DNA of 32,024 nt. Origin: Bacteroidota bacterium (GTDB lineage Bacteria > Bacteroidota > Bacteroidia > JAADEI01 > JALVCQ01). Shown piece after piece: positions 17,196-29,021 of the stretch. The notes beneath the pieces are model-generated. The model worked only from the letters and a program-made list of their open reading frames with translations, ran no database searches and had not been told where the DNA came from. Where the stretch lies: the NCBI GenBank assembly GCA_027009805.1, contig JALVCQ010000091.1, positions 1 through 32,024 on the forward strand, read 5' to 3'. Both the position numbers and the translations under genes were made by a program. Position 1 is the stretch's first letter; the number at the start of each line of letters is the position of its first letter.

Positions 17196-18860
17196 CTACA
17201 ACCGTTCTTTTATCAGATCCGCCACCCGAAAAGCGTTGGCGTAGATGGTCCATGTATAAGGGATGCTTCCGCCGGTGGGCATGAAACTGCCGTCGGTGAC
17301 GTAGAGGTTATCGGCATCGTGAACCCGACAGGAAGGATTGAGCACGGAGGTGCGCGAATCAGTGCCAAAGCGGCATCCGCCGGCTTGCAAGTTGGAGGGC
17401 GGATAGGTGCTCACGCTGCCGGTGACGTCCTGAGCGCCCATCTCGTGAAGGATTTCTCGGGCCCGCGCCACCAGAAAGCGCCCCACTTTCAGGTCATGGG
17501 GGTGGTAGCCCAGCCGCACCTTCGCCACCGGGAGTCCCCATTTGTCTTTGACCGAACGAGAAAGCGTCACGTAGCAATCGGCATGCGGCATCCAATCGGC
17601 AAAGACCTCGAAGCGCAGGCGCCGCTGCTGCTGAAAAGCTTTCATCAGGCGCTGTTTCAGCGGTCGTCCGATGCGCAGGCGGTCGCCGTCCCACTTTTGC
17701 CGTATGGCCTTGCGGATGGGGTTGTCATGTTCAAATAAAAAGTCGATGATGCCGCCTTTGATGGGGCGGCCCGTGTGGGGATCGTCAAAGACATACCATT
17801 CCACGGCCGAGCGGTTGACGAACACGCCGCGGCGGCGCAGGGCGGCTGCCTGCGCCTGTGGCAGGTCGTTATAGGCAAAGGTGCCGAACCCCGACCCCCC
17901 GGCGGAAAAGATGAGATGTCGCCCCAGTTGCCCATGGGCGTTGCCGATGCCGTCGGGATACTCTTTATTCTGGCTCATCCGCAGCAGTCGGACGGTCTCG
18001 ATGGCCTGACAGGCCACCACGAAGAGGCGGGCCGTTACCGACTGGCGTTTTCCTTCGGCATCGAAATACCATGCCCGCCGGATGCGGTGCCGGCCGTCGC
18101 TTTCCAGCGCAAAGACGTGGCTCAGCGGGCGCAAGTCCACCCGCCCCGTTTGCAATGCCGGCTCGATGAGCGCAGCCCGGGCGCTGCCCTTGGCGTCGGA
18201 CGCACAGCCATAGCTGCCGCAATAGTTGGAATAATAACAACTGCGGCGCCCTGCTTCGGGGCGGCTGAGGATGGCCCGCGGCGTCGGGATGACCGCTATG
18301 CCCAGCCGTTGCGCCGCCGCATCGATCCACTGCGATACCACGTTCTCATCCAGCGGTGGATAGGGAAAGTCAGGCCGACTTCTCGGCGGCTGCCACCGAT
18401 AGGGTACCGCCCGCCCCGAAATGCCGATGACGGTCTCGCATTTCGTGTAGTAAGGTTCGAGGTCTTCGTAAGTGATGGGCCAGTCAGTCACAGCGGCACC
18501 TTCGATGTCGCCGAACTCCGACCGCAGGCGGAAATCCACCGGATGCATCCGGTGAAAATATCCGCTCATCAGGTTGGACGAGCCACCCACGCAGTTGCCG
18601 TTCCAGAAAGAAGCACCCGAACGGGCGGTGGAAACAGCTTCCCACCCCTTGCCGGACGGTGTTTCCAGCACCTGCGGTTCTTCCAAATACGACGAAGCGT
18701 ACGCATCGCGCCGACAGCAGGCCATCTCATCTTTCCGGAAATCAGCCGTTTTGAAATAGGGTCCCTTCTCGAGCACCACCACCCGAAACCCCGCCTTTGC
18801 CAGCTCGTAAATAATCGGACCGGCACCCGCACCGCTGCCGATGACGCACACGTCAAACAT
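17196..18860 (-). CDS. GMC family oxidoreductase
   Basis: 554 aa. MFDVCVIGSGAGAGPIIYELAKAGFRVVVLEKGPYF (FAD-binding), FWNGNCVGGSSNLMSGYFHRMHP, C-terminal GGCRFGTDSRTSVLNPSCRVHDADNLYVTDGSFMPTGGSIPYTWTIYANAFRVAD. Confidence 0.94.
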   Translation of the reverse strand: MFDVCVIGSGAGAGPIIYELAKAGFRVVVLEKGPYFKTADFRKDEMACCRRDAYASSYLEEPQVLETPSGKGWEAVSTARSGASFWNGNCVGGSSNLMSGYFHRMHPVDFRLRSEFGDIEGAAVTDWPITYEDLEPYYTKCETVIGISGRAVPYRWQPPRSRPDFPYPPLDENVVSQWIDAAAQRLGIAVIPTPRAILSRPEAGRRSCYYSNYCGSYGCASDAKGSARAALIEPALQTGRVDLRPLSHVFALESDGRHRIRRAWYFDAEGKRQSVTARLFVVACQAIETVRLLRMSQNKEYPDGIGNAHGQLGRHLIFSAGGSGFGTFAYNDLPQAQAAALRRRGVFVNRSAVEWYVFDDPHTGRPIKGGIIDFLFEHDNPIRKAIRQKWDGDRLRIGRPLKQRLMKAFQQQRRLRFEVFADWMPHADCYVTLSRSVKDKWGLPVAKVRLGYHPHDLKVGRFLVARAREILHEMGAQDVTGSVSTYPPSNLQAGGCRFGTDSRTSVLNPSCRVHDADNLYVTDGSFMPTGGSIPYTWTIYANAFRVADLIKERL

Positions 18861-19407
18861 GGCCGCCGTGCCGCTTTTGCATCAGCACCTCATACCGGGT
18901 TTTCGCATCCGGGCGAGGCTTTCCTTCGTAATGATGCAACCAATGCCATCCCGCCTTTTCCACATTGCCGCCGTATATCGGGTCGGAAAGCAGCGCTTCC
19001 AGCACCACCGAAATCATGCGGGACAGCCAACCGTCACCCTCCTCGGCCATGGCGTTGACCATGGCTGCTTGGGCTTCCGCATCCAGCGCCGTAAACGAAC
19101 GCCCGTGCATCTTCTTTGCCCGCCTGTCAAGGTCATCAATGCCTTTCACGATAAGCCGCTGAATGTCAGGATCATAAAACGGGTCGCTCAGCGTCCAGCG
19201 TAAAAATTCCAGTGCATGGATTGCATCGGCGCCCGGCCCTAATTCATCATCAGGCAAGATGATCTGCATGACCCGCCGGGCAATGGCGGCCTGTCGCCGA
19301 GATAACGGCCCGCCCGTGTCCGGCGAGCAACGCATCCACACCGGCACCGAAGAAGCCAGCACCAGCGCAGCGGATCCTTTGATAAACTCCCGACGCGTCA
19401 GCGGCAT
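18853..19407 (-). CDS. Gluconate 2-dehydrogenase subunit 3 family protein with Tat-type signal
   Basis: 184 aa. MPLTRREFIKGSAALVLASSVPVW twin-arginine motif; RRQAAIARRVMQIILPDDELGPGADAIHALEFLRWTL typical of the subunit-3 family; overlaps the GMC gene by 8 nt. Confidence 0.85.
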   Translation of the reverse strand: MPLTRREFIKGSAALVLASSVPVWMRCSPDTGGPLSRRQAAIARRVMQIILPDDELGPGADAIHALEFLRWTLSDPFYDPDIQRLIVKGIDDLDRRAKKMHGRSFTALDAEAQAAMVNAMAEEGDGWLSRMISVVLEALLSDPIYGGNVEKAGWHWLHHYEGKPRPDAKTRYEVLMQKRHGGHV

Positions 19408-19410
19408 CGC

Positions 19411-20625
19411 TCATATTTTCATCCGAAGAGAGAGCATCGCTCCCATGCTGGTCTTGCGCGGGAGCCCCAGCAGATACGGCACCTTGATCATCACTTCCCA
19501 CGCCGGCTTTCGGTAGCCCGCCTGCACGCCGAAGCCCGCCACGCCTGCGGCGTTCCATTGCACCAGCGGTCGAACCACCCAGGCGTGCCGGTCCGACAGG
19601 ACGTCGCCGCCGGCCTCAATCCGCCAATAGGGCGTGTAGCCCATCGGCCACACCATGCCGTTGAGGAAGAACGTCCGTCCGCCGGTGGTATAGTTCAGCG
19701 CCAGTTTTACGTCGCCGGTCACCGGCGGCAACGGCGTTGTTGAAGTCGATACGGAGACGCCTTCGAGGCTGTCCAGGCCGCCTTCCAGCAAGGTGAGTAT
19801 GGTCTCCCGGCGGACGGTATCGAACGGGTCGGCGGCACGGGCGGCGAGTTGCACGTTCCACCGGTCGGTGGTGCCCGGCGGCGAAAAGACCAGCCCCCAA
19901 TCGTCGAACAGCAAGGCCACCCGCCACGGCCCCAGCGTTCGTTCCCATCCCAGCGAAAACATCAAGGCTATGGCATCGGCCGCCCTCATTTCCCGCTCGA
20001 ACACGCCCGTCAACGCAATCGTATCCGCCGATTCGGGAAAATAGAGGCTGCCCGCCTCTGCAATCACCTGCTGAGAGGCCACCTGTCCCACCCCCAGCGC
20101 CAGCCGCCAACCGCTGCGTCGAACGCCCACCTGAACGGCGGTCAGCCGTTGGGCTGCCAGATGGCCCGATCGCCAGTGATAGTAGCTTCCCGGCGGATTG
20201 CCCACCGAAAGAAAGCGCGCCAGATCGGCGTCCGCCCGAATCCACAGGCGGGTCACATTCCGCACCGCTATCCATCCAACCAGATCGGACCGAAAACGCC
20301 GGTGCCACATCAGTGAAAACGGCATCACTTCCATAAAAAATCCCCGCGGGCTGATCTCAGAAGGAATAATAATCGGCGGATTCAGCGTATCCGGATTGAT
20401 ACCAAACCCGTTCGATCCACCCGCCTCGGGACCTCGATAATAAAGGGAAGGATTCCATACGCCCGTGGTCATGCCATCCAATGCAAAACCGCGACTTAGA
20501 AAATTCGAAGCGTTGTGAAAGCCGCTTTGAAAGACCACTTCATTGCGCGGTTGGGTCGAATCCGCCGCCGTCAGGCGAAACAAACCCAGCCCGCTGACGG
20601 CCAGTAGCAAGAAAAAACGCGTCAT
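19411..20625 (-). CDS. Hypothetical secreted protein, probable outer-membrane beta-barrel
   Basis: 404 aa. Signal peptide MTRFFLLLAVSGLGLFRLTAA; alternating hydrophobic/aromatic strands (GVRRSGWRLALGVGQVASQQ, LGPWRVALLFDDWGLVFSPP, DVKLALNYTTGGRTFFLNGMVWPMGYTPYWRIEAGGDV). Family not recognised with certainty. Confidence 0.6.
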   Translation of the reverse strand: MTRFFLLLAVSGLGLFRLTAADSTQPRNEVVFQSGFHNASNFLSRGFALDGMTTGVWNPSLYYRGPEAGGSNGFGINPDTLNPPIIIPSEISPRGFFMEVMPFSLMWHRRFRSDLVGWIAVRNVTRLWIRADADLARFLSVGNPPGSYYHWRSGHLAAQRLTAVQVGVRRSGWRLALGVGQVASQQVIAEAGSLYFPESADTIALTGVFEREMRAADAIALMFSLGWERTLGPWRVALLFDDWGLVFSPPGTTDRWNVQLAARAADPFDTVRRETILTLLEGGLDSLEGVSVSTSTTPLPPVTGDVKLALNYTTGGRTFFLNGMVWPMGYTPYWRIEAGGDVLSDRHAWVVRPLVQWNAAGVAGFGVQAGYRKPAWEVMIKVPYLLGLPRKTSMGAMLSLRMKI

Positions 20626-20631
20626 GTAAAG

Positions 20632-22704
20632 CTATTTAACAGGAATGTTTGTGGTGGTTTCTGCATACACCGAAAAGTGAAGGGCATAATCGTCGTAAAA
20701 TACGACATGACGGTTGGGCGGCCGGGTATTCATTTCCGCCCTCACTATCCAATGGGTGCCGCTTTGCCATGTCTGCATCCGTTCCGGCGTGAGCGGGACC
20801 CTGCCTTTGCTTTCGGTGGTATCGAACACCCGCCCCATCGGGTCGGACGAGGCGCCTTGCGGCTCGGCCGGTTGAATTTGCATGGGTCCGTCGATAAACA
20901 GCGAGTCGAGAATCCGCCCGCCGGCGGAATCCCATACATACGCCTGGATGCGTATCGCCACGGGATATTGATTAGCGGCTTTCCAGTGCATCCACATCAC
21001 CGAGGCCCCGCCGTCCATCGGCAAGTCGGTCATTTCAAAGGTATCGGAGACCCGCAAGTCTTGAATGCGCACCCGCAGCGGCAATTCATACTCCACCCCC
21101 ACGGAAAATGACGACTGTTCGGTCATGAATTGGTCCCGCCGGCCGGGAAAAGCGGTCGGGTTGGCAATGATTCGCCCTTTTATCATCCACCGATCGGGTG
21201 ACAGGTTGATCAAATCGGTGATGTTCGAGTGAACGCTGTCGAACACCAGCGAGTCCTGCACCGGCCACCCGGCGGGGTCCGACATCCCGTCGATGCGGTG
21301 CGTTTGCCCCAACAGCGAAGAAGTCAGCGAAACAGCCTGAGAAGGCGCCAGGCGAACGGCCTGCAACGAATCAATCCGGAAGGAAAAGTCCATGCCGAAG
21401 GCATTTTCCATAAAAAATTTCACCGCCGCCTCCCGAAAGTGAAACGCCCCCCACCGCTTTGCCGACACATCATCCACAGCAACCTCCTCCCGAAAATCGA
21501 CGGTGTCTTTTCCCAGATAGCCGCGGACATACGCCAGCCGCTGATTGCGCAACGAAGAAAAGACACGCACGCTGTCTTGCGCAGTGAGCGTGATGACGCC
21601 GACGGAAGAGTCCATCCGCAGGCGCCGGACGGCAAAAGAAACGTTGAAAGAGTCGCCGTCGATGCCGCGCAAGTCGGAATGGTAGCCCGCCAAGTCTATC
21701 TCTACCGAATCCCGCCGGGCCGTTCCATCGGGCGAAGCAGGCACGTCCACCTGAATTTCCAGCGGCGCGCCGTTGCGCCTAAGATCCGGCGCCTGATAAA
21801 TCAGGTGCATGCCTACGGGAAAGGTATGTTCAAGGCCTAACACCAGCGTGCCCGACCGGTAGCGCACTTCTTCGATTTGCTGATCATCAAGGTGATATAT
21901 CACATCGATGGAATCGTGCACGATGTCTTGCTCCGGAAAGCGGGCCGTAGCTGACTGCACCCGCATATCGGCCGTGGTCACCTTGATCTGAAGGGCGTCG
22001 TTGGTGTCGATGACGATAGGATAGACGGGCGTGCCCGGACTGCTCACGTTCACCATCTGGGCCGTCAATTGCCCTTCGATGGTCAGCCCCGCCATGCTGA
22101 ACTGGCTGGTATGGGTCTGCCCCACCGCCAGATAGGGAATGGAATCGCGCAATACCACCGTGCCCAAGTTCTTGTTGCGGACTTCGAGCACGAGCTCCCG
22201 CAAGTCTATCTTAAACCCGTTGGTCACTTCCAGCGTCATCGTCCCCGCCAGAAAAGCGGCCTGCACAAACAGGTCGGTGATGTCCACGTCCACCGGCGGC
22301 GAGTGTGAATCATCGAAACTGTCGATAAACCGAAGTTTCCCGTGATTCAGCAAAATATCGTTGCCCAGGCTGTCGTTCATGGCCCGGGCGATTTGTCCAA
22401 GCGTGACGCCGGAAGTGGACACCCGCGTGCCCAGCGTGAGGTTTTCGATCTTCTCGGAAGTGACGGTCATGGTGTCGTCCAGCATCAGTAAAGAATCCGC
22501 ATCGAAGCGGAATGCCGCCTGCCGGCTTCTCAACACCACTGTGCCGTCGTCATCCACACTCACCACCGAGTCGGGAAGCAGATCGACCAGCCGCCATTGG
22601 GATTTAAACAGCGGCAAATAAGCCTTTTGCTGCCAGACATCGCCATCCCGCCGGCAGGAAAGGATCAGCATCGCCGACAAGCCGAAAAATATCCATTTGC
22701 GCAT
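20632..22704 (-). CDS. Hypothetical lipoprotein, paralog 1 of tandem pair
   Basis: 690 aa. Lipobox MRKWIFFGLSAMLILSC|RRDGD; shares motifs with the adjacent ORF (LTLGTRxxTxxxTLGQIAR; VRNKNLGTVVLRDSIPYLA; VIDTNDAL; DSIDVIYHLD; YVRGYLGKDT). Confidence 0.8.
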   Translation of the reverse strand: MRKWIFFGLSAMLILSCRRDGDVWQQKAYLPLFKSQWRLVDLLPDSVVSVDDDGTVVLRSRQAAFRFDADSLLMLDDTMTVTSEKIENLTLGTRVSTSGVTLGQIARAMNDSLGNDILLNHGKLRFIDSFDDSHSPPVDVDITDLFVQAAFLAGTMTLEVTNGFKIDLRELVLEVRNKNLGTVVLRDSIPYLAVGQTHTSQFSMAGLTIEGQLTAQMVNVSSPGTPVYPIVIDTNDALQIKVTTADMRVQSATARFPEQDIVHDSIDVIYHLDDQQIEEVRYRSGTLVLGLEHTFPVGMHLIYQAPDLRRNGAPLEIQVDVPASPDGTARRDSVEIDLAGYHSDLRGIDGDSFNVSFAVRRLRMDSSVGVITLTAQDSVRVFSSLRNQRLAYVRGYLGKDTVDFREEVAVDDVSAKRWGAFHFREAAVKFFMENAFGMDFSFRIDSLQAVRLAPSQAVSLTSSLLGQTHRIDGMSDPAGWPVQDSLVFDSVHSNITDLINLSPDRWMIKGRIIANPTAFPGRRDQFMTEQSSFSVGVEYELPLRVRIQDLRVSDTFEMTDLPMDGGASVMWMHWKAANQYPVAIRIQAYVWDSAGGRILDSLFIDGPMQIQPAEPQGASSDPMGRVFDTTESKGRVPLTPERMQTWQSGTHWIVRAEMNTRPPNRHVVFYDDYALHFSVYAETTTNIPVK

Positions 22705-22705
22705 T

Positions 22706-24787
22706 TCAAAAAGGCACCTTTTGAAACACTTCGCCGAAAACAGTGAATGCCAGCCGATAATCCGAATACAGGATCACTTGCTTACCATCCGGCAAGGTTC
22801 TTCCCCGGGCGCGCACCACCCAATGGGTGGCCCGATTCATCCGCTCGGCATGTTCGGGCGTAATCGTCAGGGAAGCCTGATGATAAGCCATGCCGAACAC
22901 GCGTCCCAGAGGTGCCGCAGCCGACGGGTCTTTCAACGGCGCCGCAGCCACCGCAGCCGGTGCGGCAAACAACGAATCCACCACCTCGCCGACGGTGCTG
23001 TCGTAGGCATATATCTGCACATCCCACGCTATGGGATATTCATTAAAATAGCGCCAGAACAGCCGTACACTGTCGGCATCTCCCATATCCAACGGCGACA
23101 ACGGCAGCGTATCCTGCAAATGGACGTCTGTGACCGAGAGCCGAAGCGGTGCTTCTATGCGGACTTTTACCGCCAGCGCGGAGGTGTCGTAAAAAAAGTC
23201 GGTCAGTCGGGCCGGATCGCCAGAAGGATTGCGAAACACCGTGCCCGTCACTTCGATGCGGTCGGGCATATTGGCCAGGAAATCCACCAGATTGGAAGAA
23301 GTCGAAGACACCGGAATGGCAAGCACAGCCGGCGTCAGCGGTGCGTCTGCGGCGGCCGGCAGATGATAACGCCGTCCCAACAACGGCGCCGACAACACGG
23401 CATACCGCTTTGTATAACTATTGTATCCGGAAATCGACTGCACCACCACGTCGGCATCAAAACCGAAGGTGTTTTCCAACACCAGCGCCGCTTCCACTTC
23501 ATCAAAGCGCACTGCGCCCGCCGAGAAAAGGTCTCGCATCCAGGGCAACAAAGCCGTCCCCGCCGCCGCCGTGGTGTCTTTCCCCAGATATCCCCGCGCA
23601 TACCGCGGCCGCATCGACAAAAGCCGATAGCGCAAGTAGATGCTGTCTTGCAGCGAAAGGTGCACTTTGCGCCCCGTCGAGTCGAAGGAAAGCACCGTAA
23701 TCTGATAAAACGAGTTGAACGTGTCATGATCCCGCCCCGTGAAGTCGATGGCGTAGCCGTTCAATGCATAATTCTCATAGCGCCGGACGCTGTCGCCCGT
23801 GGGCGAAGGCCGCAACGCCCAATCCACCGCCAACGGCCGGCCCGTTCCATCGGTCACACCCGGCAACGAAAGATGAAAAAACATCGAATCGGGCATCGTA
23901 TGCACCGCCGTCACGTCCAAGTTGCCCGACTTCACCTCGGCATACACCAGCCGCAGCGGATCCAGATGATAATATACATCCAGGCTGTCGTTGACCATCT
24001 TTTGCGAAGGAAAAACGGCTACCGCTTCCTGCACATACATGTTACGCCCTTGCAGGTTGAGCGTTACCGCATCGTTTGTGTCAATGACGACCAGTCCGCC
24101 GCTGCCGGGCGAGCTCATCGACAACAACTCAAACAGCAACTTCCCTTCCACCGTCTTGCCCGACAGGTCGTAGCTGTCCACGAATGTGGAATTTTTCGCC
24201 AGGTAGGAAATGGTGTCCCGAATGACGGTGGTACCCAGATTTTTGTTGCGCAGCTCAAAGATGACGTTCTGTAAATCGATGGGCAGGCCGTTAAACAAGT
24301 TGATATGCAGTTTTCCGGAGATGAAGGTGGCTTGCTCGAACATCGCGGTGATATCGATTTCCGACGGATCCGCCGACACATCCGAAAAGGGCGGGATAAA
24401 CGCCGGACTGCCGTGGGCAAGAAGAATGGTCTGTCCCGCCGTCCCAAGTCCACGGGCGATTTGCCCCAACGTCATCTGATAGGTCACCGAGCGGGTGCCC
24501 AACGTCAGTGTTTTCAGCGAGACGTTTTTTTCAAAAGAAGTGTCGGGAAAATGCCAGAACTCGTCGAGGGTCATGCGGTAAACCGTCTTTTCCATCGATA
24601 GGATGAGCATTCCCGAAGAGTCGGGATGCACCCGACCCGACAGGGCTTTTTCCAGAGAAAGTTCCGACCGGATGAGCGGAAGGTGCGCCCTGACCGAAAG
24701 GAAATCGCCCTCTTTTCGACATCCCGCCGCTATTCCCACCACTATTCCCAACCACAAAGCCGGTTTCCACCACTTTCTATAATGCAT
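22706..24787 (-). CDS. Hypothetical lipoprotein, paralog 2 of tandem pair
   Basis: Start placed at ATG 24787 (MHYRKWWKPALWLGIVVGIAAGC|RKEGD, lipobox) rather than ORF start 24982, which lies inside comEC. Shares LTLGTRSVTYQMTLGQIARG, LRNKNLGTTVIRDTISYLA, VIDTNDAV, DSLDVYYHLD, YARGYLGKDT with paralog 1. Confidence 0.8.
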   Translation of the reverse strand: MHYRKWWKPALWLGIVVGIAAGCRKEGDFLSVRAHLPLIRSELSLEKALSGRVHPDSSGMLILSMEKTVYRMTLDEFWHFPDTSFEKNVSLKTLTLGTRSVTYQMTLGQIARGLGTAGQTILLAHGSPAFIPPFSDVSADPSEIDITAMFEQATFISGKLHINLFNGLPIDLQNVIFELRNKNLGTTVIRDTISYLAKNSTFVDSYDLSGKTVEGKLLFELLSMSSPGSGGLVVIDTNDAVTLNLQGRNMYVQEAVAVFPSQKMVNDSLDVYYHLDPLRLVYAEVKSGNLDVTAVHTMPDSMFFHLSLPGVTDGTGRPLAVDWALRPSPTGDSVRRYENYALNGYAIDFTGRDHDTFNSFYQITVLSFDSTGRKVHLSLQDSIYLRYRLLSMRPRYARGYLGKDTTAAAGTALLPWMRDLFSAGAVRFDEVEAALVLENTFGFDADVVVQSISGYNSYTKRYAVLSAPLLGRRYHLPAAADAPLTPAVLAIPVSSTSSNLVDFLANMPDRIEVTGTVFRNPSGDPARLTDFFYDTSALAVKVRIEAPLRLSVTDVHLQDTLPLSPLDMGDADSVRLFWRYFNEYPIAWDVQIYAYDSTVGEVVDSLFAAPAAVAAAPLKDPSAAAPLGRVFGMAYHQASLTITPEHAERMNRATHWVVRARGRTLPDGKQVILYSDYRLAFTVFGEVFQKVPF

Positions 24788-24789
24788 CG

Positions 24790-26802
24790 CTATTCTATTG
24801 AAAGCGGAAAAAGTAACGCTTTTTGCGGGACTATTCGCTCTTCTCTCCATAACGGACGAAACGGAGCCATCGACATCCGTCGGAACCGCTTTCGAGACGA
24901 CAGAGTAATCACCGTCTTTTCCACCCACGGCCACCGGTCGCCGCGGACGTGCACCTGAAACTCCTGTTTTCCCACCATCCACAACGGACGACGAACCATC
25001 ACCAGGCGGTCGGAATACCGTTCAGGAAACGACCTGAACACTACTTTTTTCACAAACCAACTATCCAGCATCCGGCGATGCCGGCGCACAAACTCGTCAG
25101 GAGCAGCCCGATGAAGAAACACCACAGCTCTCCGCCCATTCGGAACAACCAATGCCATTCCGGAAGAGACAGCCACCCAGGCGCCCCGCGGATGCGACAT
25201 CACCCGCCACTTCCGAACCGTGCGCACCGTTCCATACACCGCCAACACCAACCAGAGCCCCACCCATGCCTCCCACCGACGGATATAATAAAACACAACC
25301 GCCGACATCACCACCAAAAGCAACCCCAGCATCATTTCAACGTCTGATAAATACAAACCTTCCCACATCGCCCCGCGCCACGAAGACACCCAAAAAGAAG
25401 CCGCCTTCAAACCACGCAATGCATACAGCAACACCATCCCCAACAGTTCCGACCACACCCCAACCCCCAGCAACGAATAAGCCAACAAATAGGCCAGCCC
25501 CACATACACCACCACCGTCACCAACGGAATCACCATCAGGCTGCTCAGCACACTGTAAAGCGGCAGCTTTCCAAAATAATAAATCACCAGCGGTGCGGTG
25601 GAAAGCACCGCCGCCGCCGACATCATCATCAACATCACCGCCCACTGAACCCACCCGGAAGAAAAAGCCACCCAGCGCCGCCATATGCCCACAAACACGA
25701 TGATGCCCATCACCGCCGCATATGAAAGCTGAAATCCGGCATCTAACAAATAAGCCGGCTGAATGACCAACATCAAGAAAAACGACACAAGGGCCGTATT
25801 AAGCGACCACTGATCCCGTTCGACCGAGAGGGCCATGCCAAAGAGAAAAAACATCAACGCCGCCCGAACCACCGACGGTGAAAAACCCGTCAGCGCCGCG
25901 TATCCGCCCAACACCACCGCCATCAAAACCAGCCGCAACCACCGCAGCCACCTTCCATACCGCCAGCGCCGAAGCAGCCAGGCCAGCGGCAGGTAAATAA
26001 TTCCCACATGCAGCCCCGAAATAGCCAGCACATGCACCGCACCGGCCCGCACGAATCCTTCCCGGAGCCGACTGTCCATCCCCTCCCGAATCCCCAATAA
26101 AATCGCCCGACCCAACTTCAATGCATCCCCCGACAACACTTGCGCAAGCGCACCATCCAGAAACCGCCGCCAGCGAACTATTACGCCCTCACGCTCAGTG
26201 GCCGCCACCGCCCATCGACGCGGATACAACACGTGCCGAATCGACGGCCACTTCCGACGGTTCCAGTTGATCCAGAACGGCGAATCTCCCTTAAACAACG
26301 CTCTCGCATACGCCTCCATCACATATACCCCTTCCTCCGGACCCTTTCCCCTCGGAAATCTCACCAGCACCGTTTCCGCACCTTTCACTTCCCGCCCTTT
26401 TTTCGTTTCAGGTTGCCAACACCAAACCTTCCCCCGATAGGTCTCAAAATAATCGCTTACCTTCACCTTCTCATCCAGCAATATCACGGCTTTCCCCTTT
26501 CCCGCACTCACCACCCCTTCTTTCGGCGGCCCACACCTTACCAGATACCACGCTGCCCCCAACAATCCGAAAGCCGTCACCTGAAATCCCATCGACGCCT
26601 TTCCCTTCACCCACCACGCCAACCCACCCATTACCACCGTCCCTCCTATCAAAACCACCGGATGAACCACCTCCCCGTATCGATACGCCGACAGAATCCC
26701 CGCCGCAAACGGCAACAAAATCCGAAGAATTGGAAGGTGTTGATATCGCAGAGAAACCCGGTGAAAAAACAAGGGACTTTTTACCATACCCGATTTTTCC
26801 AC
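24790..26802 (-). CDS. comEC: ComEC/Rec2 family competence protein
   Basis: 670 aa. AGAVHVLAISGLHVGIIYLPLAWLL (competence-domain motif), many TM helices, ALTGFSPSVVRAALMFFLFGMALSVERDQWSLNTALVSFFLMLVIQPAYLLDAGFQLSYAAVMGIIVF. Starts GTG 26802 or ATG 26787. Confidence 0.92.
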   Translation of the reverse strand: MEKSGMVKSPLFFHRVSLRYQHLPILRILLPFAAGILSAYRYGEVVHPVVLIGGTVVMGGLAWWVKGKASMGFQVTAFGLLGAAWYLVRCGPPKEGVVSAGKGKAVILLDEKVKVSDYFETYRGKVWCWQPETKKGREVKGAETVLVRFPRGKGPEEGVYVMEAYARALFKGDSPFWINWNRRKWPSIRHVLYPRRWAVAATEREGVIVRWRRFLDGALAQVLSGDALKLGRAILLGIREGMDSRLREGFVRAGAVHVLAISGLHVGIIYLPLAWLLRRWRYGRWLRWLRLVLMAVVLGGYAALTGFSPSVVRAALMFFLFGMALSVERDQWSLNTALVSFFLMLVIQPAYLLDAGFQLSYAAVMGIIVFVGIWRRWVAFSSGWVQWAVMLMMMSAAAVLSTAPLVIYYFGKLPLYSVLSSLMVIPLVTVVVYVGLAYLLAYSLLGVGVWSELLGMVLLYALRGLKAASFWVSSWRGAMWEGLYLSDVEMMLGLLLVVMSAVVFYYIRRWEAWVGLWLVLAVYGTVRTVRKWRVMSHPRGAWVAVSSGMALVVPNGRRAVVFLHRAAPDEFVRRHRRMLDSWFVKKVVFRSFPERYSDRLVMVRRPLWMVGKQEFQVHVRGDRWPWVEKTVITLSSRKRFRRMSMAPFRPLWREERIVPQKALLFPLSIE

Positions 26803-26996: not shown

Positions 26997-27032
26997 AAAG
27001 CGGGGAAACGCCAAAAAGCATTTCCCCACTTT
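26997..27032 (-). terminator. Rho-independent-like hairpin downstream of the YadA/S74 gene
   Basis: Minus strand AAAGTGGGGAAA-TGCTTTTTGGCG-TTTCCCCGCTTT followed by TTAG; 12-bp stem with one U-G wobble, 25 nt after the stop of the 27057-29021 ORF. Confidence 0.65.
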
Positions 27033-27056: not shown

Positions 27057-29021
27057 CTATCGTTTTGTTTCAGCTTCTAATTCGGAAAGTCGGTGCTCTA
27101 ACCGCTGAATGTGTTGTTGTTGCTGCTGAATAGCATTAATAAGCACAGGAACCAGCCGGGTGTAATCCACCGACCAGAGGCTTTTGCTTTCGTCGGCTGG
27201 TTTACTCACGGCCTCAGGAATGACCTGATAAAGTTCCTGGGCGAGTAATCCCACGGTGTGTTCTTTATTGTTTTTGTCTATCACCAACTGACTGTTTTCA
27301 AAATGGGAAGAATGATGAACATATTCCACGGGTCGCAGTTTCATTACCGCATCCACTCCATAATGTATGTGTCGAATGTGGCTTTTGATGCGCTGGTCAG
27401 AATAAGTTAACCACGCATTAGCCCGTCCTTTTCCAATGCTGCTATCGGTGTTGTTGGGTAGTTCCAGTGCATAGGCAGGGCTGTCAAGATTTATTCCCAC
27501 GCGATAAGTATTGCCGTTTGGTCCAATGAGAAAAACATTTGATGTATTGATGGTGGGAGGAGATGAGGATACGTTATATCCAAATGCAAAAGTGTGAGAG
27601 GCGGTAAAGTCTAATTTCATGCCCCTTCCCATGGAAACAGAGTAGCTGCCGGAAGCTGTATTGTTTTGTCCCCCTAACACGGCAGCGGCGAATCCCGTTG
27701 CAGTGTTGCTTTGTCCTCCGGCAACGATGGTGTAGTCTCCGCTTGCTGTATTACTTCGTCCCGCTACGGTGGAATATTGCCCACTTGCATTGTTCGCAAA
27801 TCCTCCTACAATAGTGGCGAGATTTCCACTTGCGTTGTTGATCCATCCACCACATACGGTAGTTCTTGGTCCGCCGGCTGTATTATTTTCTCCTCCTCCA
27901 ACGGTGGAGCGTTCTCCGCTTGCTGTATTGTTCTGACCTCCTGCAATCACAGCGGCCATTCCGCTTGCCGTGTTGTTGGAACCGCCGCCCACAGTGGAGC
28001 TTGATCCACTTGCAGTATTATTTGAACCGCCACTTATAGTAGTGCTCGAATTGCTTGCCGTGTTGTTGATACCAAAAGCTACCGAGAAATTTCCTGTGTT
28101 GATATAGTCCCATTGATTACCTGTGACTCGTCCTGCCCGAATGGCGGATTTGCGTGGGTTCCATATAAAAGCAGTTTTTGCTCCGGCTGGGATGGTGTCC
28201 CCTGATCCATAATTTCCTTCTGCGTACATCATTCCATCGCCGATGAGGTGCAACTGATAGTTGGGACTTGTTGTTCCGACGCCGACGTTACCAGCGTCGG
28301 ATATGACCACATTGGTAGCATTATTGGCATGAATATAGGTGCCTGCATCAGTCCACTGTCCACTTCCTCCACTGCTTCCTCCAAGGTTCGTCCATGTGCC
28401 GCCGTTGTTCTTAAACTGTATAATTCCTCCATTGTCTCTAATTCCATACCCCCAGTATCCCACGGCTGATCCAAAGTTGTGATAGCTATTGGCGGATTGA
28501 AGCATATTGCCTACTACGTGCAATTTTGTTGTCGGACTTGCCGTTCCAATGCCCAGTTTTCCGCTGTTAATCACCATATTTCCGAATTCGTTTAATCTGA
28601 ACATCCACGTCCCGTTTTCATCAAATGCCTCGAAAAAAGACCAGGCACTGGACGTTGTTCTTGTCATACTAATCCCGATTTGGCCTGTTCCTTGAACGGT
28701 AACTAATTTTCCGGCACCGGGCGCTCCTGATGGTAGCGTTGCACTTCCTGTCATAATCTTTCCTGTTACCGTTAATTGTGCATCCGGGTTTGCTGTTCCG
28801 ACGCCTATGTTACCATTATTCTTAACGACTAAATAGGTATTGCTTCCATGCTGAATGTGCAATAGGCTGCCGGTGTATGTGGTTGGTGCTTGAATGTCTA
28901 ACCGGGCAGCCGGCACAGTGGTCCCTATACCCACTTCCTGGGAGTATGTAAAAGTTGTTGATAAAAACGAAAACAAGATAGCAGGTGTTGAAAAGATTTG
29001 CTTATTCATATTATTGCTCAT
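27057..29021 (-). CDS. Secreted protein with YadA-head/Hep_Hag-type repeats and C-terminal intramolecular chaperone (peptidase S74) domain
   Basis: 654 aa. Signal peptide MNKQIFSTPAILFSFLSTTFTYSQ; about ten ~15-aa repeats (NNTASGSSSTVGGGS NNTASGMAAVIAGGQ...); C-terminal AWLTYSDQRIKSHIRHIHYGVDAVMKLRPVEYVHHSS...EHTVGLLAQELYQVIPEAV, then coiled coil INAIQQQQQHIQRLEHRLSELEAE. Start may be the second ATG (29009). Confidence 0.88.
   Translation of the reverse strand: MSNNMNKQIFSTPAILFSFLSTTFTYSQEVGIGTTVPAARLDIQAPTTYTGSLLHIQHGSNTYLVVKNNGNIGVGTANPDAQLTVTGKIMTGSATLPSGAPGAGKLVTVQGTGQIGISMTRTTSSAWSFFEAFDENGTWMFRLNEFGNMVINSGKLGIGTASPTTKLHVVGNMLQSANSYHNFGSAVGYWGYGIRDNGGIIQFKNNGGTWTNLGGSSGGSGQWTDAGTYIHANNATNVVISDAGNVGVGTTSPNYQLHLIGDGMMYAEGNYGSGDTIPAGAKTAFIWNPRKSAIRAGRVTGNQWDYINTGNFSVAFGINNTASNSSTTISGGSNNTASGSSSTVGGGSNNTASGMAAVIAGGQNNTASGERSTVGGGENNTAGGPRTTVCGGWINNASGNLATIVGGFANNASGQYSTVAGRSNTASGDYTIVAGGQSNTATGFAAAVLGGQNNTASGSYSVSMGRGMKLDFTASHTFAFGYNVSSSPPTINTSNVFLIGPNGNTYRVGINLDSPAYALELPNNTDSSIGKGRANAWLTYSDQRIKSHIRHIHYGVDAVMKLRPVEYVHHSSHFENSQLVIDKNNKEHTVGLLAQELYQVIPEAVSKPADESKSLWSVDYTRLVPVLINAIQQQQQHIQRLEHRLSELEAETKR
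27624..28073 (-). repeat. Approximately ten tandem ~45-nt coding repeats (YadA-like beta-roll)
   Basis: Recurring gcttgccgtgttgtt/gcttgctgtattgtt-type units on the plus strand encode (N/S)NTASGxxxxVxGGx on the minus strand. Confidence 0.85.

Follow-up and report, generated by a model that had tools for sequence, protein, structure and literature searches.

Tandem sandwich lipoproteins and a candidate DUF5723-type barrel in a Bacteroidota genome: a putative derived version of a two-gene module of the outer membrane

Two-gene units consisting of a lipoprotein and an outer-membrane barrel are represented in the Bacteroidota by the uptake pairs SusC-SusD and BtuB-BtuG. The SusC and BtuB barrels are TonB-dependent transporters and are far larger than the barrel described here. 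Another pairing is found in the BAM complex of Bacteroidota, in which the lipoprotein BamH docks on the barrel BamG (PMC12578637, PMC12611786). BamG, which is FadL-like, has been described in published work as universal in the phylum.

The locus described here is in a 32,024-nt stretch of DNA from a Bacteroidota bacterium, analysed as a whole and termed the window (contig JALVCQ010000091.1 of assembly GCA_027009805.1). Two paralogous lipoprotein genes are found next to a gene for a predicted outer-membrane barrel. On balance, the locus is best read as a derived copy of a Bacteroidota outer-membrane module of two genes, a lipoprotein stalk and a DUF5723-type barrel, with a presumed role in scaffolding or assembly.

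The locus and its paralogous lipoproteins

The three open reading frames of interest are on the minus strand with inter-gene gaps of 1 and 6 nt (Table 1), and the tight packing and coordinates of the original prediction were reproduced. That prediction also placed the barrel gene upstream in transcription order and took the unit to be three genes. Instead, transcription reaches the barrel gene after both lipoprotein genes, comEC precedes the three, and the same-strand run has six members: comEC, lipoprotein 2, lipoprotein 1, barrel, Gluconate_2-dh3 and GMC oxidoreductase, with gaps of 2, 1, 6, 3 and −8 nt. comEC is probably co-transcribed with lipoprotein 2, and a terminator-like hairpin is the likely upstream limit of the transcript. 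The third-codon-position GC of the three genes (0.68-0.72) is that of their neighbours.

Table 1. Features of the locus (positions in the window)
Feature	Position	Strand	Basis or remark
GMC oxidoreductase, 8-nt overlap with the Gluconate_2-dh3 gene	17196..18860	-	PF05199 E 7e-23
Gluconate 2-dehydrogenase subunit 3-like, TAT signal, 3 nt downstream of barrel	18853..19407	-	PF13618 E 8e-17, TIGR01409
Outer-membrane beta-barrel, 404 aa, highly diverged; occupies the position of DUF5723 elsewhere	19411..20625	-	AlphaFold2, PDB fold matches
Barrel Gly142-Asn143, in register with invariant GN of (F)xxDLFxLxFxGN	20197..20202	-	alignments
Lipoprotein 1, 690 aa, paralogous to lipoprotein 2	20632..22704	-	alignment, tree, AlphaFold2
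Lipoprotein 1 sandwich S4, residues 561-690, common to two-sandwich forms	20635..21024	-	hhalign, model, domain profiles
Lipoprotein 1 sandwich S3, residues 421-560	21025..21444	-	hhalign, model, domain profiles
Lipoprotein 1 sandwich S2, residues 259-420	21445..21930	-	hhalign, model, domain profiles
Lipoprotein 1 sandwich S1, residues 96-258, missing in ~535-aa short forms	21931..22419	-	hhalign, domain profiles
Lipoprotein 1 N-terminal segment, residues 18-95, W(D)xxxLAPL...DSLL region of family	22420..22653	-	alignments
Lipidated Cys17 of lipoprotein 1	22654-22656	-	mature N-terminus CRRDGDV
Lipoprotein 2, 693 aa, first transcribed of three	22706..24787	-	long form, four sandwich repeats
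Lipidated Cys23 of lipoprotein 2	24719-24721	-	mature N-terminus CRKEGDF
comEC/Rec2-like gene, separated by 2 nt from the lipoprotein 2 gene downstream	24790..26802	-	PF03772 E 2e-48, TIGR00360
Terminator-like hairpin of 16 pairs, located between comEC and the S74-type gene upstream of it	26997..27032	-	pattern match only

The GMC oxidoreductase and TAT-signalled Gluconate_2-dh3 genes (17196-19407, minus strand) lie directly 3′ of the barrel gene, 3 nt away. On the other side, positions 27057-29021 (minus strand) encode a protein of 654 amino acids in which a Peptidase_S74 (endosialidase chaperone) domain is accompanied by beta-roll-like repeats; the third-position GC of this gene is 0.43, compared with 0.65-0.73 in its neighbours. 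A weakly similar protein is encoded just downstream of a lipoprotein-DUF5723 pair in a genome of the same order (G002, L151:11809-13746).

Lipoboxes (MLILSC and GIAAGC) are confirmed in the two lipoproteins, the lipid-bearing cysteine being invariant in 87 aligned family members. The proteins align end to end with 34% identity (E about 1e-130) and are sisters with full support in the tree, and the proposal that they arose by duplication and divergence holds. Identity between the paralogs is highest in sandwich S1 (44%) and lowest in S3 (26%). As the tree joins them with full support, the duplication is lineage-specific. No significant match to Pfam or NCBIfam was found for either lipoprotein, nor a convincing one for 28 relatives.

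The AlphaFold2 model of lipoprotein 1 is all-beta (pLDDT 91.9, pTM 0.74), and by profile comparison the protein falls into four sandwich repeats. S1 is a repeat of S2 (hhalign probability 96%, E 1.5e-9) and has a weaker relation to S4; the label beta-sandwich for these repeats comes from PDB matches and from the pattern of strands. Domain profiles distinguish three forms in the family, with S1+S4 (~360 amino acids), S2+S3+S4 (~535) and S1-S4 (~700), and the shortest of these is also found beside DUF5723. Among the credible fold matches to lipoprotein 1, 4H3W (BDI_1231, a putative secreted protein of Parabacteroides distasonis) ranks first, with E 1.8e-10 and probability 1.00. This structure is also the top PDB match of the family sequence profile, at E 0.26, and shares with the family a motif N-x-x-P-F-(D/E) ... 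D-E-N. However, it covers only part of the lipoprotein 1 model (TM 0.47 by target, 11% identity) and is itself uncharacterised, and a profile of the two-sandwich form has no match in PDB, 4H3W included. Fold matches to Cry toxins, reelin and viral coat proteins, with TM-scores near 0.1, were set aside as generic beta-sandwich noise.

A widespread lipoprotein family and its barrel neighbour

The tandem-sandwich lipoprotein family, which carries no name, is defined by alignments A1/A3 through a lipobox cysteine and a full-length profile match. The window lipoproteins match the family profile at E 1.6e-154 and 6.2e-146, both being rows of A1; independent single-sequence matches reach 3.9e-67 in other families. 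Single-sequence searches detect relatives in 45 of 60 related genomes. With the profile, the family is detected in 215 of the 293 Bacteroidia genomes that were sampled; in a phylum-wide sample of 149 genomes, other classes included, 49 have it. Thus the family is not private to this genome. The genome itself has an ordinary second copy, at C25, where a 520-amino-acid lipoprotein is followed by a DUF5723 barrel; in the tree this lipoprotein is on a long branch, far from the window paralogs.

Of 91 other loci, 85 have a DUF5723-type barrel encoded directly downstream on the same strand; with the window's two added, the figure is 85 of 93 distinct loci, in a non-random sample that favours stronger profile matches. 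The barrel gene usually overlaps the lipoprotein gene or is a few bases away, and PF18990 itself is matched by 21 of 28 aligned barrels. Where a genome has multiple copies, a barrel is found beside every lipoprotein copy, with three pairs in G059 and two in G015. The pair is also carried by the order-mates G002, G003 and G004. Six loci besides that of the window are without a recognised DUF5723 neighbour. At one locus (L022, G030:C9), the family lipoprotein is followed by a protein of ~320 amino acids that reads like another outer-membrane barrel, not DUF5723.

No second tandem lipoprotein pair was found among the matches listed or the loci examined. Since loci elsewhere and at C25 have a lone lipoprotein gene with a barrel gene, the conserved unit consists of these two genes, and the tandem lipoproteins are peculiar to this lineage. 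The original prediction had proposed the two-paralog plus barrel arrangement as the system, and had called for a survey of its conservation across Bacteroidota. The lipoprotein-barrel order is indeed conserved; the three-gene order is absent elsewhere in the loci examined, and the system as proposed is not sustained. The related claim, of lipoproteins that work with an outer-membrane barrel and belong to an undescribed family, is supported for the lipoprotein, which has no curated model and adjoins the barrel at 85 of the 91 loci. The barrel type is already catalogued, as DUF5723 (PF18990), and the window's own barrel is tentatively assigned to it.

Genes beyond the pair vary among loci, and no consistent enzyme, inner-membrane transporter or functional pointer was found there. 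Some neighbours recur within clades: a small membrane protein upstream on the opposite strand (21 loci), a rarA-like gene upstream (8 loci) and a kdsA-like gene downstream (8 loci), all three named by reading their sequences and not by scan. In G061 and G095 (L157, L158) a lipoprotein of ~190 amino acids precedes DUF5723 and weakly matches the sandwich-lipoprotein profile, which suggests a one-sandwich form. DUF5723 proteins of 730-870 amino acids are also found without a lipoprotein gene (L160, L161, L163, L165, L172 and others). From a reading of their sequence ends, these appear to terminate in OmpA-like regions, and might represent a second, lipoprotein-free use of the barrel.

The window barrel and the side of the membrane

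The 404-amino-acid barrel of the window is highly diverged. It has no Pfam or NCBIfam match and gives no hit to PF18990 at the curated cut-off of 26.8 bits. Against a DUF5723 profile built without it, neither HMMER nor hhalign gives a significant result, and a single-sequence search of 60 genomes finds the barrel itself alone. The lack of any significant sequence match or relative might mean that an unrelated outer-membrane barrel took the place of DUF5723 beside the duplicated lipoproteins, and locus L022 indicates that at least one other family member seems to have a different barrel downstream. This substitution is nevertheless considered rather unlikely. The window barrel has the position and length of DUF5723, and two DUF5723 motifs, the GN of DLFxLxFxGN and the DxG of DxGxI, are in register in alignments A2 and A4. 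Global-alignment z-scores reach 6.1 (median 3.0), whereas those of the reversed sequence are at most 3.1 (median 0.4). AlphaFold2 run on the DUF5723 alignment predicts a beta-barrel with moderate confidence (pLDDT 72.5, pTM 0.72), though this alignment presupposes the relation. The top PDB fold matches of the model are solved outer-membrane barrels (autotransporters, porins), with a FadL homologue and solute channels also among the matches. The window barrel is thus probably a diverged DUF5723 protein; as the model is not independent of that assumption, the identity stays tentative.

DUF5723 adjoins the lipoprotein family nearly everywhere, including the second locus of this genome and the order-mates. 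It also occurs without a sandwich lipoprotein, as in the apparent OmpA-like fusions, and the window barrel has no match to its model. A literature search found no paper using the family name.

The strict signal for lipoprotein export to the surface is C-x-K-(D/E)2 (PMC5080379). With K or R allowed, it is present in 7 of 87 family members; C-x-(K/R)-(D/E) is found in 50 of 87, and the usual mature N-terminus in the family is C-(R/K)-(K/R)-(D/E). Both window lipoproteins lack the strict signal but have two acidic residues among the first six after the cysteine, which is the looser criterion applied to BAM surface lipoproteins. Surface exposure is plausible. Bacteroidota O-glycosylation sequons are in excess in the window lipoproteins (15 found where 3.7 are expected, and 11 where 3.1 are expected) and across the family (6.7 compared with 2.6). 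This excess fits export across the inner membrane and does not separate the two sides of the outer membrane; part of it may represent a structural motif.

A periplasmic location has also been considered, with the sandwich stack hung from the outer membrane and spanning the periplasm or touching peptidoglycan, and the barrel acting as an anchor. The rarity of the strict export signal is in keeping with such an arrangement, as are the OmpA-like C-terminal regions carried by some DUF5723-type barrels. The acidic residues near the cysteine of both window lipoproteins speak against it, and calibration of the export signal from this lineage is limited, the genome having no SusD. We regard the periplasmic location as possible but doubtful.

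Proposed role and comparison with known systems

Near-fixed adjacency and co-duplication point indirectly to a physical partnership of lipoprotein and barrel, and the variable count of stacked domains suggests that a barrel anchor carries a stalk whose length can be adjusted. In the family lipoprotein, the lipid anchor is followed by a conserved stretch of limited length and then by beta-sandwich domains in tandem, two to four of them. The rod-like protein would bind its barrel in the outer membrane and project as a stalk that is longer or shorter according to how many sandwich repeats it has. In the reading favoured here, that of a derived scaffold or assembly module, the pair would serve as an envelope scaffold or as an accessory of assembly or export, by analogy with BamH on BamG, and not as a nutrient importer. 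In this lineage, doubling of the lipoprotein gene would have placed two diverged stalks on one fast-diverging barrel.

Uptake systems of Bacteroidota are usually laid out as a lipoprotein plus a barrel, and the pair may be one of them. The DUF5723 barrel would then resemble FadL or a porin and let a hydrophobic or small solute through, with the lipoprotein capturing substrate at the channel mouth as SusD does for SusC, and the FadL homologue and solute channels among the PDB matches are compatible with this. However, no carbohydrate-binding or substrate-binding domain is recognised, no enzyme or inner-membrane transporter recurs consistently among the adjoining genes, and a sandwich number of two to four is more easily reconciled with a stalk than with a binding pocket. 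Uptake is accordingly judged improbable, and the scaffold module is retained as the preferred reading.

Roughly three in four of the Bacteroidia genomes sampled have the pair, with its gene order kept; its lipoprotein has no curated model, and it appears that nobody has studied the sandwich lipoprotein family. On a more speculative level, and with low confidence, the module might represent an undescribed, phylum-wide complex with a role like that of BamGH, in which it would assemble or display structures at the cell surface; repeat number and, in this lineage, lipoprotein doubling would tune it. The modular lipoprotein and the present family definition make a knockout or pull-down in a laboratory strain straightforward.

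Identity with the described pairs was examined. No PDB chain with a BamG or BamH annotation is matched by either alignment, and the 50 best fold matches include no BAM subunit. A FadL identity of the window barrel was tested and not upheld. Toluene_X/FadL (PF03349) has no match in this genome, whose own BamG may have diverged strongly or be absent from the assembly. For SusC-SusD, the lipoproteins have no SusD_RagB or other Pfam match, and PF07980 is not found in the genome.

Of the known systems, BamG-BamH is alike in combining an outer-membrane barrel with a large lipoprotein and in having a paralogous pair, BamG2-BamH2, in an operon (PMC12578637, PMC12611786). It differs in that BamG is FadL/Toluene_X-like, whereas the window barrel has no such Pfam match. 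SusC-SusD and BtuB-BtuG share the two-gene lipoprotein and barrel layout and the phylum, but the window barrel, of ~400 amino acids, is far smaller than SusC and BtuB, and the lipoproteins have no SusD match. Most likely, the lipoprotein and barrel form a stable outer-membrane complex that is analogous to BamH-BamG or SusD-SusC and matches neither.
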